A DNA stretch of 64,000 bases from Natrinema versiforme (GTDB lineage: Archaea > Halobacteriota > Halobacteria > Halobacteriales > Natrialbaceae): the NCBI RefSeq assembly GCF_005576615.1, contig NZ_CP040330.1, forward strand, positions 3,472,001-3,536,000, given 5' to 3'. Numbering within the stretch: position 1 is the first letter of the stretch; every line of letters begins with the position of its first letter. The notes under the pieces are model-generated. The model saw nothing but the letters and a program-made list of their open reading frames with translations, was not told the origin of the DNA and ran no database searches. The position numbers and the translations under genes are program-made. Positions 45,942 through 53,101 of this stretch are shown piece after piece.

Positions 45942-46958
45942 TCAGTCGCTGCGCTCGGCGACCTTGACCAGTTGCTTGCCGATGTTCTCGCCTTCGAACA
46001 GCCCGAGGAACGCGTCGGGCGCGTTCTCGAAGCCCTCGACGACGTTTTCGCGGTAGCGGATCTCGTCCTCCCCAACGAATTTCGAGAGTCGCTGAAGCGC
46101 CTCGCCCCAGCGGTCCTGATAGTCGCCGACGAGGAGGCCCTCGACTTTCGCGCGGGTTTCGATGAGTTTGGCGAGCTTTCGGGGACCGGTCGGTACCTCG
46201 GTCTCGTTGTACAGCGCGATCTGGCCGCAGACCGCGACCCTCGAGTGGACGTTCAGCTGGGGCCAGACGGCGTCGGTGATCGGGCCGCCGACGTTGTCGA
46301 AGTAGACGTCGATCCCGTCGGGACAGGCCTCGGCCATCGCACTGCCGAGGTCGTCGGTCTCCTTGTAGTTGATCGCGGCGTCGAAGCCGAGTTCCTCGGT
46401 GAGCCACTCGGTCTTCTCGTCGCTGCCGGCGGTACCAACCACTCGCGCGCCGTTGATCCGGGCGAGCTGGCCGACGACGGAGCCGACCGCGCCCGCGGCG
46501 GCGGAGACGACGACGGTGTCGCCGGGGTTCGGGTCGCCGACGTCGAGCAGCCCCCAGAACGCCGTCACGCCGGGCATGCCGAGGACGCCGAGGGCCGTCG
46601 AGATCGGCCCGAGTTCGGGGTTCACTCGCTGGAGTTCGTCCGCGTCGGCGACCGCGTGTTCCGCCCAATAGAGGTCGCCGGTGACGACATCGCCCGCCGA
46701 GAACGCGTCGGCTTCGGACTCGATGACTTCCCCGACGACGCCGGCCTGCATCGGATCGCCGACGTCCCACGGCTCGGCGTACGACTCCGCATCACGCATT
46801 CGCCCGCGCATGTACGGGTCGACTGACTGGTACAGCGTCTTGACGAGGACCTCGCCGTCGTCCGGCTCGGGCCGGTCGACAGTCACGAGTTCGAAGTTCT
46901 CCGTGGTCGGTTCGCCGACGGGACGGCTGGCGAGTCGCCACTGTCTGGTTTCTGCCAT
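45942..46958 (-). CDS. NADP-dependent oxidoreductase (medium-chain, quinone/prostaglandin-reductase type)
   Basis: 338 residues. VVSAAAGAVGSVVGQLARINGARVVGTAGSDEKTEWLTEELGFDAAINYK (about 145-194) is the Rossmann segment of medium-chain reductases, without zinc ligands; VDPYMRGRMRD and DVYFDNVGGPITDAVWPQLN fit the leukotriene B4 dehydrogenase/CurA-like branch. Probably reduces alpha,beta-unsaturated ketones or aldehydes with NADPH. The ATG at 46958 is chosen by family N-terminus; convergent with the ABC-2 operon. Confidence 0.92.
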   Translation of the reverse strand: MAETRQWRLASRPVGEPTTENFELVTVDRPEPDDGEVLVKTLYQSVDPYMRGRMRDAESYAEPWDVGDPMQAGVVGEVIESEADAFSAGDVVTGDLYWAEHAVADADELQRVNPELGPISTALGVLGMPGVTAFWGLLDVGDPNPGDTVVVSAAAGAVGSVVGQLARINGARVVGTAGSDEKTEWLTEELGFDAAINYKETDDLGSAMAEACPDGIDVYFDNVGGPITDAVWPQLNVHSRVAVCGQIALYNETEVPTGPRKLAKLIETRAKVEGLLVGDYQDRWGEALQRLSKFVGEDEIRYRENVVEGFENAPDAFLGLFEGENIGKQLVKVAERSD

Positions 46959-47090
46959 ACACATACATGAACCCGCCAACAGGTGAAGATTGGCTTCGCG
47001 GAACCTCGGGACGGCGGTGCTGTCGATCGCCGTCTCCCGTCCGGCTCGGCGGGCTCGAACCTTTTTCTTCACCGTTCGTGTAGGTCGAGT

Positions 47091-47813
47091 ATGGGACCCG
47101 ATCGCAGTACTCTCGAGCGGCTCCTCGCCGGGAACCGGCGCCACGTCGAGTCGCTGCCCGACGAGTACTTCGCGGACGTTCAGATCGGCCAGCACCCGAC
47201 CGTGGTCGCGGTCTGTTGTTCCGACTCGCGGGTCTCCCACGAGGGGATGTGGGGGATCGATCGGCCGGGTGGGATCTTTACGCCGAGCAACATCGGCAAT
47301 CAGGTCTGGGACGAAGACGACGGCGAGCGGATCATCGACGGCGGCGTCCTCTATCCGATCCACCACACCGGCACCGACGCCGTGGCCGTCGTGGGCCACA
47401 CCGGCTGTGGGGCCGTCACCGCGGCCTCCCACGTCGCGGCCGGCGCGGAGCCACCGGGGCCGCAGGGCGTCGACAAGTGGGTGGACATGCTCGTCCCCGT
47501 CGTCGAGGAGGCCCTCGAGAGCGGTCTGATCGACGCCGACGCCCACGACAAGCGGGTGATCAACCAACTCGTCGAATACAACGTCGGCTATCAGGCCCGC
47601 TCGCTGTGCGAGGCCGACGAGATCCCAGACACTGCTTCAGTCTACGGCTTCGTCTACGACTTTCAGGGCGTCTACGGCGACCGCCCCGGCCGGACCTACC
47701 TCGTCAGCGTCGACGGGGAAACCGACCCCGACGCGCTCATCGAGTTGGTGCCGGACGGCTACGAATCGACGGTGAAGAGCCTGCTGTACGGCGGCGAGGT
47801 CTCGACCGACTGA
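47091..47813 (+). CDS. Beta-class carbonic anhydrase
   Basis: Interconverts CO2 and HCO3-. 240 residues; beta-CA zinc ligands Cys43 in AVCCSDSRVS (with Asp45-Arg47 dyad), His103 and Cys106 in GHTGCGAV. No signal peptide, so cytosolic. It faces convergently the dabA stop with 12 nt between. That places it in the same locus as the DabA-DabB transporter and fits bicarbonate uptake followed by conversion inside the cell. Confidence 0.94.
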   Translation: MGPDRSTLERLLAGNRRHVESLPDEYFADVQIGQHPTVVAVCCSDSRVSHEGMWGIDRPGGIFTPSNIGNQVWDEDDGERIIDGGVLYPIHHTGTDAVAVVGHTGCGAVTAASHVAAGAEPPGPQGVDKWVDMLVPVVEEALESGLIDADAHDKRVINQLVEYNVGYQARSLCEADEIPDTASVYGFVYDFQGVYGDRPGRTYLVSVDGETDPDALIELVPDGYESTVKSLLYGGEVSTD

Positions 47814-47825
47814 CCGTCGGGGCGG

Positions 47826-50276
47826 TCAGTCGTCGGCCGCCGACTCCGCGACCGGTGTCGTCGGTTCCGGGACCGTCGCGTCCGTCGTCTCGCTCGCCCA
47901 CTCGAGGTCGCCCGCGTAGTGGAACGCCTCGTTGTCCTGCTCGGGATCGACGGCGGTCAGATCGCCGATCCAGCCGTTCTCGAGGAGTTCGCGGACGTCC
48001 TCGTGCTCGCGGAGGATCTCGGTCACGCGCTCGACCGGCGCGTGGATCACCGCGGTCAGCCGCAGCGGCTGGTGGAAGGGGCGCTCGTCGTCGCGATTGA
48101 GCGACTGCAGCGGGAGGCCGGTCAGGAGGTCGCCGCCGTTGCCCTGGACGACGCCAACGTTGCCGACCGGGTTCTGGGTGACCTTCGAGCCGCTCCCGTA
48201 GGCGGCGTTGTCGACCGTCGCGAAGTAGTACTGGTTGTTGATCCACTGGGTGACCACGAGCGGGCCCGTGAAAATCGCCTCGAGGGCGTCGCCGTCGGGG
48301 TCGGTCGACCAGTCGTAGGAGTGGAGGAACGCGCGACCGTCGAGGTTCCGGTCGGCGGTCAGTTCGCGCGGTCCGATGACGAAGGAGGCGTTGCCGGCCA
48401 GCCCCCACTCGGGGCGGGTTTCGGCCCAGTCGGCCGCCTTGCGCTCGACCTCGTCGACGGCCGCCTCGCTCTCGACCGATGCGGTGCGCTCGGCCGCGGC
48501 CCCGGCACGGGCGCGGTCGAGGTTCTCGCGCAGGGACTCGAGGTCCGCGCGGTGGCTCTCGGGCACCGAATCGTCGAAGAGGGAGATCTCGTCGGTCGTC
48601 GTGTTGTGTTCGCCCGCGAGGAAGACGGTGTCCTCGGGGATGTCGATCCCGCGCTCGCGCAGTTCGGCCTGCACGTCCTCGTCGTTACAGATCGTCGCGA
48701 GCACGCGGGCGTTGGGGCCGCCGGGGTTGCCGGCGCAGGCCCCGCAGTCCAGACTCGAGCCGAAGGGGTTGTTCGTCGTCTCGCTGGCGTGGCCCGCGAA
48801 GACGACCAGTCGGGCGAACTCCGTCCAGCCCATGAGTTCGAAGGCGGTTTGTGCGTACTCGACTTTCTCCTCGTGGCTCATCCCCTGCGGGAGGTCGTGG
48901 TCGGCGTGATCGTGGTCGTCGTACGCGTCGTAGTCGATGGCGGGCGCGGCGACCTCGGGAACGCTCGGGACGCGGTCCTCGAGGGCGGACTCGAGTGTCG
49001 CGATCGACGACGGCGACAGCGTCCGCGCGGTCATCGCCGAGCCGTAGGCGCTGCCGGCCCCCTCGACGAAGGTAAAGGCGGCGACGAGGTTCGATTTGAG
49101 CGTCTTGAAGTGCTTGCGGGCCGCCGTGGCGAGCCCGGTCCAGCGGTCGCGATCGGCGGCCGCCTCGGCGTCGTCGGGCCGATCGACGATCCGGTGTTCG
49201 GGGTCGACGATCGGCGGGCAAGCGTCGGTGTCGGCCGCGGCCTCGTGGCCCCGGTAGCGCATCGGGACGCCGAAAAAGCCCGCGTAGCCGTGGGTCTCGT
49301 AGGGGCCTTGGGCCTCGATGTGGCGGCGGATCACCTCCGAGCGCGTGTCGATACAGAACACGAGTTGGGCGGCCGGCCGGTCGGCGGCAGCGTCGCCGGG
49401 CTCGGTCACCGAGTCGTCGATTCCCTCGAGAAGTCGCTCGCGATAACTCTTCTCCCACGCGGTCAGCCAGATCTCGGGTAGGGGAACGTCGTCGCCGTCC
49501 GCATCTGATTGGGCGGTCTCGGAGCCCTCGGCGAGGTCGATCGGCGCGGCCAGCAGGTCCGCGAGCGTGAGCCGCACCGCGAGGTACTGGGCCAGCGTAA
49601 TCGGGTACGCCTCCTGCCACGGGTCGACGTCGTCGTCGGTCCGCTGCTTGATGAACCCGCTCCAGCCCGGGAGGGCGGCGAGGTGCGCTTCGAGGACCTC
49701 ATCCCAGCGCTCCTCGGGGTAGTCGCCGAGTGCCGACTCGAGGGCCTCGAGCGCCGTCGCCGGGAGGTCGTCGGCGTCACAGCCCGGGATGTCAGCGTCG
49801 TGGGGAGCTATCGTGCGCCACGCCCGATAGAACCCGTCCTCGCGGTTGGGCATCGGCCACTTGGCCTGTCCCTCGTCGAGGAAGGCCGCGAGCCACTTCG
49901 AGAGGACCCGATCGACGGCTTCGGTCGCGTCGTCGGGCTCGGTGGCGGTGCGCTCCGACTCGGCCTCAGCCATCGCCTCGAGGAGCGTCTCGGGATCGCG
50001 GTCGATCCCGTGGGCCTCGAGTTCGACCCGGAGCGTGTCGACATCGATCCGGCCCGACTCCCACGCGCGGCGGAAGACCGACGGGTGGGGATACCCCCGC
50101 CCGCCGAACAGGTCCTCGGCCTCGGCGACGGCCCGGTGGAACGGCTCGTCCTCGAACCCCGAAAGGGGGTTTGCCGTGACGAACGAGTGCAGCGGCCAGA
50201 CCGAGCCGATGCGTTCGGCCGCGCTGTCGATGTGTTCCTCGATGCGACGGGTGTCGTCGGGTTCCTTACGCGTCAT
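47826..50276 (-). CDS. dabA: DabA-type inorganic carbon transporter subunit (DUF2309)
   Basis: 816-residue cytosolic/peripheral protein of the DUF2309/UPF0753 family, now known as DabA. The predicted zinc site is complete: Cys308 and Asp310 in AQLVFCIDTRSEVIRRH, His496 in VVFAGHASETTNNPF and Cys511 in SSLDCGACAGN. The His-to-Cys spacing of 15 equals that of the characterised Halothiobacillus protein. With DabB it is thought to couple cation influx to vectorial CO2 hydration, trapping bicarbonate in the cell. Its start overlaps dabB by 11 nt. Confidence 0.92.
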   Translation of the reverse strand: MTRKEPDDTRRIEEHIDSAAERIGSVWPLHSFVTANPLSGFEDEPFHRAVAEAEDLFGGRGYPHPSVFRRAWESGRIDVDTLRVELEAHGIDRDPETLLEAMAEAESERTATEPDDATEAVDRVLSKWLAAFLDEGQAKWPMPNREDGFYRAWRTIAPHDADIPGCDADDLPATALEALESALGDYPEERWDEVLEAHLAALPGWSGFIKQRTDDDVDPWQEAYPITLAQYLAVRLTLADLLAAPIDLAEGSETAQSDADGDDVPLPEIWLTAWEKSYRERLLEGIDDSVTEPGDAAADRPAAQLVFCIDTRSEVIRRHIEAQGPYETHGYAGFFGVPMRYRGHEAAADTDACPPIVDPEHRIVDRPDDAEAAADRDRWTGLATAARKHFKTLKSNLVAAFTFVEGAGSAYGSAMTARTLSPSSIATLESALEDRVPSVPEVAAPAIDYDAYDDHDHADHDLPQGMSHEEKVEYAQTAFELMGWTEFARLVVFAGHASETTNNPFGSSLDCGACAGNPGGPNARVLATICNDEDVQAELRERGIDIPEDTVFLAGEHNTTTDEISLFDDSVPESHRADLESLRENLDRARAGAAAERTASVESEAAVDEVERKAADWAETRPEWGLAGNASFVIGPRELTADRNLDGRAFLHSYDWSTDPDGDALEAIFTGPLVVTQWINNQYYFATVDNAAYGSGSKVTQNPVGNVGVVQGNGGDLLTGLPLQSLNRDDERPFHQPLRLTAVIHAPVERVTEILREHEDVRELLENGWIGDLTAVDPEQDNEAFHYAGDLEWASETTDATVPEPTTPVAESAADD

Positions 50277-51762
50277 TGTATTCCTCCGTACTGGTGAGGA
50301 CGGTCGTCGGGTCCGGTTGCGAGACGTTCAGCAGGGCGACGTAGAGGCGTTCGCTCGAGCGGAGCCAGCCCAGTTCCGCCGCGAGATACGCGCCGATAAA
50401 GAGAGCGACGACGAGGTAGTGGACGGGCGTCATCGCGGTCGAAACGTGGGTCATCGGGACGCCCGAGAGCATCGACGAGACGGCGTTGAACGCGACGGCG
50501 TAGCCGCCGATCGCGGTCAGGACGATCAGCGGGACGCTGACGAACCGGACCGCCGTCGGCAGGGTCGACCGCTGGAGGATGTCTCGAGCCGCGGTCAGCG
50601 TCGTGAGGACCACGACCAGCGTCAGGATGGTGCCGCTGTTCAGCGTCAGGCTCGTCGCCTTTCCGGTGAGGACGCCGAACAGCACGCCGCCGCCGACGGC
50701 CGTCAGGAAGCTGACGGCGATCCCCGAGAAGCCCAGTTCGGTGTGGGCCGCGTCCTTCGGGGCCGCGCGTTCGACGCCCGCTCCCGACGAGAGGAAGAGG
50801 TATGCCTTGTAGAAGCCGTGCAGGATGAGGTGGGCGATCGCGGCGGCGAAAAAGCCGAGCCCGCACTGGAGTATCATAAAACCCATCTGGGCGATTGTCG
50901 AACTGCCGAGCTTGCGTTTGATGTCCGTCTGGACGAGGATCATCGCCTGTCCGAGCAGGGCGCTGACCGCGCCGACGAGGACGATCGCCGACATGATCAC
51001 CAGTTGGTCCCCGATCAGCGGCGCGAACCGAGTCAGCAGAATCCCGCCCGCGTTGACGAACCCGGCGTGCATCAGGGCGGAGGCCGGCGTCGGCGCGGTC
51101 ATCGACGACAGCAGCCAGCCGTGAAACGGCAAGAGTGCAGACTGGATGATCGCCGCGAGGACGATCCCCGCGGCGGCGACGAGCCCGACCGTCGGCGAGA
51201 CGCCCTCGAGACCTTCAAGCAGGCCGGTGAGCGTGGTCGCGCCGGTCGCCCAGACGAGCAGCGCCACGGAGCCGGCGAGTAACGCGGTGCTGGCGAGGAA
51301 GTAGCGGCGGGCAATGTGGCCGGCGGCGCGGGCCTGCGGCCAGTCGCGAACGTGACCGATGAGCCCGGCCATCAGCAGCCCCATCGCCAGCCACGCGGCC
51401 ACGAACAGCGCGACGTGGTTCGCCGCGGTCATCGTCATGACGGCGAGGGTAAAGCCGAAGACGCGACCGAAGAACCGCTCGAGGTCGCGATCGCCGGCCA
51501 TGTAGCGCCGCGAGTAGCTGTGGACGATCCCGCTGAAGAACGTGACCACGACCCACATGACCGCGGTCAGCCCGTCGATCCGCAGGAGCGTCGGGAACTC
51601 CCAGCCGGCTCCGCCCCGGATCGCCAGCGCGAGGACGCCGAGACTGGCGATGAAGAGCGTCCAGACCGTCCAGGTCGACGCTCGAGGGACGGCCGAACTC
51701 GGCGGCGTCGGTTCGGGGCGCGGTGCGATGTCGTCGTCGATCGTTGCTGTGTCCTCGGTCAT
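50266..51762 (-). CDS. dabB: DabB-type NuoL/MnhA-like membrane subunit
   Basis: 498 residues, about 13 membrane helices, of the proton-conducting NuoL/MrpA superfamily that partners DabA. The superfamily motif is visible as helix residues with conserved Lys/His (e.g. HGWLLSSMTAPTPASALMHAGFVNAGGILLTR and IAHLILHGFYKAYLFLSSG). Member identity follows from its overlap with dabA. It probably supplies the cation gradient energy for the complex. The ATG at 51762 is preferred over an upstream in-frame one. Confidence 0.9.
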   Translation of the reverse strand: MTEDTATIDDDIAPRPEPTPPSSAVPRASTWTVWTLFIASLGVLALAIRGGAGWEFPTLLRIDGLTAVMWVVVTFFSGIVHSYSRRYMAGDRDLERFFGRVFGFTLAVMTMTAANHVALFVAAWLAMGLLMAGLIGHVRDWPQARAAGHIARRYFLASTALLAGSVALLVWATGATTLTGLLEGLEGVSPTVGLVAAAGIVLAAIIQSALLPFHGWLLSSMTAPTPASALMHAGFVNAGGILLTRFAPLIGDQLVIMSAIVLVGAVSALLGQAMILVQTDIKRKLGSSTIAQMGFMILQCGLGFFAAAIAHLILHGFYKAYLFLSSGAGVERAAPKDAAHTELGFSGIAVSFLTAVGGGVLFGVLTGKATSLTLNSGTILTLVVVLTTLTAARDILQRSTLPTAVRFVSVPLIVLTAIGGYAVAFNAVSSMLSGVPMTHVSTAMTPVHYLVVALFIGAYLAAELGWLRSSERLYVALLNVSQPDPTTVLTSTEEYNDA

Positions 51763-52040
51763 GTGTCGTAGCGGCGACCAGCCCGTCACCGGCTCCCGTC
51801 GTGACGTGTCGTTCGCGGCAACAATTGCCCAACTGGTCGTCTCTACCCCATATATGAACAGAGCGGTTATTATAGCCTTTGGTTCGAACAATTCGTTCGA
51901 ATATCGCCAAATACGAACGTCATGTTATACCATTGCATATCTATGGATGGTGCATAGAGCGGCTGTACCCAACGAACAGGAAAACGAGCGGCGTCTCGTA
52001 CCGTCGGCGACGCGGTGCCGGGAGACTGTCGCCCACGATA
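51763..52040. promoter_or_regulatory. dabB upstream region with inverted repeat
   Basis: Minus-strand promoter region of dabB. On that strand TATA-like strings GCTATAATAACC (51866-51877) and CATATATGGGG (51847-51857) precede a leader of 70-85 nt. Just upstream, an inverted repeat TTCGAAC (51883-51889) / GTTCGAA (51895-51901) with a 5-nt spacer is a likely operator. The rest lacks a gene. Confidence 0.5.
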
Positions 52041-52505
52041 TCAGCGGGAGGAAAACTCGTCGAACGAGGTCGATTGGTGGCTGCGAACGAGTACTTCGTC
52101 CGTGATCGTCAGTCCCATGTCCGCGAGCTGCTGTGCGATCGGGGTGACGTCCCTGTCGTTTTCGACGACGACCGTCACGAGGAGGTTCTGTTCGCCCGTG
52201 ATCAGTTCCTGCACCGAGACGACACCCGAGATCTCGAGCAGGTCGTCGATGTACTCCCCGCGTTCGGGAATCGACGCCGTACAGAAAAGCAGCATCCGGA
52301 TCGGATAGCCGGACTTCGTGTAATCGATGTTCGCGCTGTAGCCCTTGATGACCCCTTCCGACTCCAGTCGCTGAATGCGCTTGCGGACCGTACTCGAGGA
52401 GGCGTCGGTCCGGTCGGCGATCTCGCTCGAGGAGAGGTTCCGCGCCTCCTCTTGGAGCGCATAGAGGATTTCCCGATCGACCGCGTCGAGGTCGTAGTCC
52501 GCCAT
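52041..52505 (-). CDS. Lrp/AsnC family transcription regulator
   Basis: 154 residues. N-terminal winged HTH: LDAVDREILYALQEEARNLSSSEIADRTDASSSTVRKRIQRLESEGVIKGYSANIDY (about 5-60). C-terminal ligand-sensing RAM domain follows (MLLFCTASIPERGEYIDDLLEISGVVSVQELITGEQNLLVTVVVEN). TATA-like TATCTTATAGC on the minus strand about 26 nt upstream supports the ATG at 52505 (leaderless). It is codirectional and upstream of dabB, so it is a candidate regulator of the dab genes, sharing no operon evidence beyond position. Confidence 0.92.
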   Translation of the reverse strand: MADYDLDAVDREILYALQEEARNLSSSEIADRTDASSSTVRKRIQRLESEGVIKGYSANIDYTKSGYPIRMLLFCTASIPERGEYIDDLLEISGVVSVQELITGEQNLLVTVVVENDRDVTPIAQQLADMGLTITDEVLVRSHQSTSFDEFSSR

Positions 52506-52589: not shown

Positions 52590-52808
52590 ATGCGAGAACG
52601 CCTCGAGTCGGATATCGCCTTCTACTACGCCGTCGGTGTCTTCATCATCGCGGTGTTCGTCGTCGGAATGGCGGCCTTCGCCGTGTTCAACCCCGGGGGC
52701 GTCGGGACCGTCGAACTCGTCGGGCTCTCGGGCGGATTCTTCCTGTTCATGTTCGTCTACTTCATCGCAATCTCGATCCAGCGGCTGGAGGACGGGGACA
52801 GTATTTGA
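52590..52808 (+). CDS. Small two-helix membrane protein
   Basis: 72 residues with two hydrophobic segments (about 11-34 and 45-64) and polar ends. GAATACTTATACGG at 52557-52570 places a TATA-like box about 26 nt before the ATG (leaderless). It is divergent from the Lrp gene, and downstream of it lies cspA with 98 nt between. Function unknown. Confidence 0.7.
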   Translation: MRERLESDIAFYYAVGVFIIAVFVVGMAAFAVFNPGGVGTVELVGLSGGFFLFMFVYFIAISIQRLEDGDSI

Positions 52809-52906: not shown

Positions 52907-53101
52907 ATGGCGAAAGGAACCGTTGATTTCTTCAACGACACTGGCGGCTACGGATTCATCGAGACTGAGGACGCGGACGACGACGTGTTCTTCCACATGG
53001 AAGACATCGGCGGCCCGGACCTGGAAGAAGGACAGGAACTCGAGTTCGACATCGAGCAGGCCCCCAAGGGCCCGCGCGCGACGAACGTCGAGCGCCTGTA
53101 A
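52907..53101 (+). CDS. cspA: Cold-shock domain protein CspA
   Basis: 64 residues, complete cold-shock domain: MAKGTVDFFNDTGGYGFIETEDADDDVFFHMEDI contains the RNP1-like GYGFIE and RNP2-like VFFH motifs that bind single-stranded RNA/DNA. PKGPRATNVERL ends it. TATA-like GGTTTATGAC lies about 30 nt upstream of the ATG at 52907. Nucleic acid chaperone. Confidence 0.95.
   Translation: MAKGTVDFFNDTGGYGFIETEDADDDVFFHMEDIGGPDLEEGQELEFDIEQAPKGPRATNVERL

Follow-up and report, generated by a model that had tools for sequence, protein, structure and literature searches.

A predicted DAB-type inorganic carbon pump in Natrinema versiforme with a linked Lrp-family regulator and a conserved, putative operator-promoter element

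Here, we focus on a predicted inorganic carbon pump of the haloarchaeon Natrinema versiforme and on the genes around it, found in a 64,000-nt stretch of its genome (the window, whose positions are used throughout). Between 47091 and 52505 lie genes for an Lrp/AsnC-family regulator, for the two subunits of a DAB pump (dabB and dabA) and for a beta-carbonic anhydrase (CA), and a 43-bp operator-promoter element stands upstream of dabB. All four genes had been named in an initial annotation of the region and are present and intact, with the Pfam support given here:

52041-52505, minus strand: Lrp/AsnC-family regulator of 154 aa, for which the name DabR is proposed (Pfam HTH_AsnC/HTH_24; winged helix-turn-helix and RAM-like C-terminal domain)
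51883-51901, no strand assigned: perfect inverted repeat TTCGAAC-N5-GTTCGAA, the Natrialbaceae form of the upstream operator half
51856-51898, minus strand: operator-promoter element of 43 bp, GAACGAATTGTTCGAACCAAAGGCTATAATAACCGCTCTGTTC (motif search and position weight matrix, PWM)
50266-51762, minus strand: dabB, NuoL/Mrp-like membrane subunit of 498 aa (PF00361 E=9.3e-40, PF00662; best PDB match 9rd0_B, E=3.7e-38)
47826-50276, minus strand: dabA, beta-CA-like catalytic subunit of 816 aa (PF10070 E=1.6e-271, full model; 9rd0_A E=9e-115)
47091-47813, plus strand: cytosolic beta-carbonic anhydrase of 240 aa, a neighbour and not part of the core (PF00484 Pro_CA E=1.7e-22)

The dabB gene starts at an ATG at 51762, where the list of open reading frames had given a TTG, and overlaps dabA by 11 nt (dabB stop at 50266-50268, dabA ATG at 50274-50276). 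The genes for DabA and CA converge with 12 nt between their stop codons, which bears out the tight convergent placement first described for them.

Families and catalytic residues support a CO2/bicarbonate system of the DAB type, as originally proposed, and the zinc ligands ascribed to DabA are borne out by residue alignment. Aligned to the solved DabA2 of Halothiobacillus neapolitanus (9rd0_A), the protein of the window keeps C351, D353, R355, H524, C539 and the finger residue E444, all of which have been shown to be important in DabA2 (PMC13144422) and are invariant in 81 of 81 haloarchaeal DabAs aligned. DabA (PF10070) has the Cys2His zinc site and the Asp-Arg dyad of a DAB pump, and the PF00361 gene that adjoins and overlaps dabA encodes a DabB in which H339, H343 and K347 are invariant. 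These residues (C351/H524/C539, the D353-R355 dyad, E444 and the three of DabB) are shared with DAB2 of H. neapolitanus (DabA2/DabB2, PDB 9rd0; PMC13144422), both of whose subunits are homologous to the haloarchaeal pair. The system of the window differs from DAB2 in a genome without RuBisCO or carboxysome, in an Lrp instead of LysR and in two residues of DabB: Lys235 in transmembrane helix 7 (K235 of DabB2; K229 of NuoL) has given way to Gln in 79 of the 80 DabBs from haloarchaeal loci L071-L150, and its partner Asp185 is Ser, Thr or Gly. Together, these exchanges may have a bearing on ion coupling. The idea of a uniquely archaeal loss of coupling is weakened by bacterial DabBs, most of which have Lys or Arg at position 235 while 2 of 9 have neither; since bacterial DabBs do not always carry Lys or Arg here, we take the Gln as a lineage trait and not a defect.

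By homology, the pair would function as a pump in N. versiforme, in which the membrane potential, through the NuoL-like DabB, would power vectorial hydration of CO2 at the zinc site of DabA. An orthologous pair of the same class, dabAB of Haloferax volcanii (HVO_2410/HVO_2411), is already annotated in passages of PMC8305020 that predict a CO2 transporter and mention no regulator, operator or CA for it; the haloarchaeal pump was thus known before. A literature search covering HVO_2410, HVO_2411 and HVO_2412 and Lrp with bicarbonate found no regulatory study, and no experimental work on HVO_2410 or HVO_2411.

The regulator gene accompanies the pump across the class. In a profile of 155 near-complete haloarchaeal genomes drawn from across Halobacteria, DabA and the Lrp orthologue were each found in 99; both are present in 98 genomes, DabA only in one, Lrp only in one and neither in 55 (Fisher p=8e-40, relatedness uncorrected). 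Judged by coordinates, the two genes are within ~6 kb of each other in 97 of the 98 genomes that have both, and in the DabA-only genome (G046) the contig ends just upstream. In a second set, of 80 named haloarchaeal DAB loci, 79 have an Lrp orthologue (64-99% identity) that is upstream of dabB and co-directional with it; the 80th is a contig that ends inside dabB. The genetic unit that is present or absent together is Lrp-dabB-dabA, and the same three genes are found on haloarchaeal plasmids (H. marismortui pNG700; Halorientalis litorea), with no CA in the stretch opened. Next to bacterial plasmid DAB loci the regulator is LysR in 7 of 10 opened; with the Lrp orthologue in 98 of 99 DabA-bearing haloarchaeal genomes, this agrees with the initial annotation, which had put an Lrp-type protein in LysR's place.

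The single Lrp-only genome (G045) holds the only orphan orthologue found (G045:C1, L186:5515-11061; 68% identity). It is convergent to genes for a CooC-like ATPase and an anaerobic Ni-CO dehydrogenase (TIGR01702 E=1.6e-183) and lies beside UspA and an MFS transporter, whose gene is preceded by a partial operator-like site (score 26).

As a protein, the regulator belongs to the Lrp/AsnC (FFRP) family, with the AsnC-type helix-turn-helix (HTH) recognized by Pfam and the RAM domain by structure: a Pfam search of the protein matched the HTH and not the RAM domain, the AlphaFold model has a winged HTH followed by a beta-alpha-beta-beta-alpha-beta domain, and the best Foldseek matches of the model are archaeal Lrp/AsnC proteins over their full length (7fby, 9w4w, 2cyy). 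By fold search, the winged HTH and RAM-like fold are shared with PH0140 (7fby/9w4w), PH1519 (2cyy), P. furiosus LrpA (1i1g) and a halophilic Lrp (8q90) at ~20-29% identity. The DAB-linked Lrp differs from these in its proposed dedication to dab, in a single exact operator per genome and in one residue of the ligand pocket, where the Asp of the PH0140 motif TGAHD corresponds to an Asn (N107, TGEQN) that is invariant in the DAB-linked clade. This exchange hints, and no more, at an unusual ligand. The recognition helix, S-x-STVRKRI, is invariant in 32 orthologues.

If the regulator is constant, so is the DNA before dabB. The 43-bp element has the form GAAC-N5-G...TATA...GTTC; in the window its arms (GAAC at 51895-51898, GTTC at 51856-51859) flank the B recognition element (BRE) and TATA box at ~51867-51875. 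It was scored in the window and in 79 named loci and stands before dabB in all but one of these 80 sequences (the window and 78 named loci). The sole sequence without a proper element, L142, was left out of the motif; it is a contig labelled Bradymonadaceae bacterium, a metagenome-assembled genome (MAG), with a haloarchaeal-type Lrp-dabB-dabA-CA arrangement and a degenerate operator, and is probably mis-binned. Each base of the outer GAAC and GTTC is retained in 77-79 of 79 sequences, a conservation as strict as that of the TATA box between them. With an invariant G10 and a common C34, each side reads GAAC-N5-G, and the two sides are inverted copies ~30 bp apart from centre to centre, on the same face of the helix. 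Upstream of dabB, GAAC-N35-GTTC was seen 74 times against 1.6 expected, and in cross-validation the PWM scored highest on the dab promoter in every one of 78 loci (median 60 versus -6 for the runner-up). Exact matches in 61 whole genomes number 23, all at dab and none elsewhere. A search of the window with up to 3 mismatches returned a single match, 51856-51898, with 0 mismatches, and no operator copy at the CA gene.

The palindrome first noticed in this region, placed within 51880-51905, is the repeat TTCGAAC-AATTC-GTTCGAA at 51883-51901 and overlaps the longer, deeply conserved element at 51856-51898. Over 79 loci, GAAC-N5-GTTC was seen upstream of dabB 27 times versus 2.1 expected. As a general operator the palindrome TTCGAAC-N5-GTTCGAA was rejected: it is confined to Natrialbaceae and a few others, and the general form is GAAC-N5-G...GTTC around TATA.

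Three kinds of loci distinguish the operator from mere linkage or a mere promoter. The element remains at dabB in loci with an amidohydrolase gene between Lrp and dabB; both arms are still intact at dabB in a genome (G082, locus L209) in which Lrp and the amidohydrolase lie 56 kb away; and in another (G068, L212) the TATA stretch has diverged with the GAAC/GTTC arms retained. This is strong indirect evidence that a trans-acting DNA-binding protein acts at the operator, for which the co-inherited Lrp would be the obvious candidate.

The amidohydrolase is itself a conserved protein of ~338 aa. In many lineages (L094, L098, L099, L101, L102, L104, L111, L190, L191, L208, L210 and others) its gene lies between Lrp and dabB in antiparallel orientation, and it remains with Lrp where Lrp is found away from dab (L210). 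In L120, L125, L146, L101 and L098, the dab operator is preceded at ~30 bp by another palindrome, of the type AGAACATAATGTTCT, which may be the site of a further regulator, perhaps one of the divergent amidohydrolase gene. Downstream of the operator, the dabB mRNA is predicted to have a 5' leader of ~83 nt (51762-51845 in the window; median ~63 over the loci). Haloarchaeal mRNAs are mostly leaderless, and a leader of this length is unusual among them.

On balance, it is probable that the locus encodes a DAB pump in an Lrp-dabB-dabA unit whose dedicated, near single-target Lrp acts through a two-part operator, likely as a repressor that is relieved when inorganic carbon is scarce. The regulator (DabR) would bind GAAC-N5-G on both sides of the dabB BRE/TATA, with the outer halves inverted, and the occupied operator would block TBP and TFB and so repress dabB; scarcity of inorganic carbon would lift the repression. 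Binding at the operator, repression over activation and the nature of the effector are what we infer from the sequences. Repression is favored because the arms flank BRE/TATA, with the inner arm between TATA and the expected start (~51845), and inorganic carbon is the most economical guess for the signal because the regulator appears to have a single target. A further step, which we regard as improbable, would make the Lrp a direct sensor of CO2 or bicarbonate with a repurposed amino-acid pocket, tied to one operon across Halobacteria and moved in one lineage to a CO dehydrogenase locus.

The signal is also the point on which one alternative departs. Binding of amino acids by the RAM domain is usual in the Lrp/AsnC family, and the protein might be an ordinary regulator of amino-acid or nutrient status that has dab as one target along with nitrogen or carbon metabolism, so that inorganic carbon would not be the signal. 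We give this a limited chance, since the exact operator occurs only at dab in the 61 genomes, unlike the sites of global regulators, the Asp of PH0140 TGAHD is replaced by the invariant N107, and the one orphan orthologue lies beside CO dehydrogenase.

For the mode of action, the main alternative is activation from the palindrome at 51883-51901. Ptr2 is an archaeal Lrp-family activator that recruits TBP and TFB, and the same dedicated Lrp could act on the same pump in a Ptr2-like manner, binding directly upstream of BRE/TATA, where Natrialbaceae have their best palindrome. Across the class, however, the arm that lies downstream of TATA, before the expected start, is equally conserved, and outside Natrialbaceae only the outer halves are kept, which makes activation an unlikely reading.

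Whether the unit extends to the CA gene is a separate matter. The enzyme is a beta-CA with the Pro_CA fold and the CxDxR and HxxC motifs, CxDSR (here CSDSR) and HTGCG being kept in alignment to solved CAs. Three further genes flank the region:

52590-52808, plus strand: TM72, a 72-aa membrane protein divergent from Lrp, at the edge of the Lrp-dabB-dabA block
52907-53101, plus strand: cold-shock protein (Csp) of 64 aa, old flank
45942-46964, minus strand: NADP-dependent oxidoreductase (curcumin reductase/PTGR-like) divergent from CA, old flank (NCBIfam NF058644 E=1.1e-125, below cut-off)

In congeners and family members without DAB (L187, L188, L193, L194, L195), CA, TM72 and Csp are contiguous and Lrp-dabB-dabA is absent, and in two of these (L194, L195) the oxidoreductase gene of the window also adjoins CA. 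In Halopiger goleimassiliensis and a related MAG (L087, L092), the block is instead found with TM72 on one side and Csp on the other. Since CA stands beside TM72-Csp in DAB-less congeners, it occupies the site independently of DAB, and CA is not gained and lost with the pump. The self-contained module that the initial annotation had drawn, CA included, does not hold: CA is at the same site in relatives without DAB and is near DAB in just 33 of 80 loci. This empty-site comparison and the absence of CA near most loci rule it out as an obligatory part of DAB.

Even so, 33 of 80 loci with CA within 10 kb compares with ~0.8% expected per locus (34 were listed, but L128 was dropped as a spurious weak match over the Csp gene). 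The DAB-linked CAs come from several lineages, with supported branches that force at least 3 changes between linked and unlinked (parsimony 9), and stand in four placements: convergent 3', co-directional 3', between Lrp and dabB, and upstream of Lrp. From this linkage, the several lineages and the four placements, the co-location is not chance. In L123, L134, L192 and L211 a divergent CA (30-34% to that of the window) is found just upstream of the operator and dabB; it is of a lineage separate from the 3' neighbours. These counts favor a true CA-DAB module, in which CA would equilibrate or recapture internal CO2 while DAB supplies bicarbonate, as does the CA directly downstream of mpsAB, a DAB homologue, in B. 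subtilis, B. anthracis and S. sciuri (PMC8552792). Against such a partnership stand the DAB-less congeners with CA at the same site, the majority of loci, which have no CA nearby, the CA gene without an operator copy and the report that co-expression of MpsAB and CA brought no benefit in staphylococci (PMC8552792), and we hold it to be doubtful.

Several points weigh against the proposal of a dedicated repressor. Orthologues share descent, so the Fisher value for the co-occurrence of DabA and Lrp overstates independence. The RAM domain rests on a moderate model (pLDDT 71, pTM 0.54), the genome-wide operator search used exact spacing and there may be targets with other spacing, and Lrp/AsnC proteins can also activate. 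The 43-bp element may in part act as a strong basal promoter; that it is a strong core promoter and nothing else, with Lrp a passive hitch-hiker, is very improbable, for although it includes BRE/TATA and conserved promoters exist, the GAAC/GTTC arms, no less conserved than BRE/TATA, fall outside it, they survive drift of the TATA (L212) and an Lrp 56 kb off (L209), and Lrp tracks DabA near-perfectly.

What a heterotroph would do with such a pump was left open in the initial annotation, which had suggested anaplerotic bicarbonate. The suggestion fits; the question is largely answered in the literature, since in heterotrophs MpsAB/DAB supplies anaplerotic carboxylation at air CO2 (PMC6689103). 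The nearest named locus, at 88% in DabA, is one of Natrinema versiforme, which points to a host in Natrialbaceae. The N. versiforme genome has one DabA, one Pro_CA (that of the window) and one phosphoenolpyruvate (PEP) carboxylase, and no match to RuBisCO (PF00016) in a search that gives a signal in the control genome of H. volcanii. This speaks against a RuBisCO-linked CO2-concentrating mechanism, and a link of DAB to RuBisCO was rejected more widely: among 61 relatives the presence of RuBisCO shows no relation to that of DAB (14/28 versus 15/33, Fisher p=0.8). With PEP carboxylase present and RuBisCO both absent and unlinked to DAB, the most likely role of the pump is in anaplerotic and biosynthetic carboxylation, in line with the proposal for MpsAB in S. 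aureus; bicarbonate trapped by DabA would feed carboxylases such as PEP carboxylase. MpsAB of Staphylococcus aureus is likewise a heterotroph's DAB homologue and is required for anaplerosis at the CO2 level of air, and in some Firmicutes mpsAB has a CA directly downstream, a likeness to the loci with CA near DAB; it differs in phylum and in its proposed Na+/HCO3- symport (PMC6689103, PMC8552792). To our knowledge, no Lrp is linked to MpsAB.

With the pump known, what is new here is the putative dedicated regulator-operator pair conserved across Halobacteria, undescribed as far as the literature search shows. The genetic unit is delimited as Lrp-dabB-dabA, and CAs have come to adjoin DAB repeatedly, despite a co-expression reported to be useless in staphylococci. 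DAB pumps are found in many phyla, and as far as we found their control outside LysR-bearing bacteria is apparently undescribed. A system of one regulator and one site across an archaeal class would provide a clean test case for how an Lrp-type protein may report on inorganic carbon.

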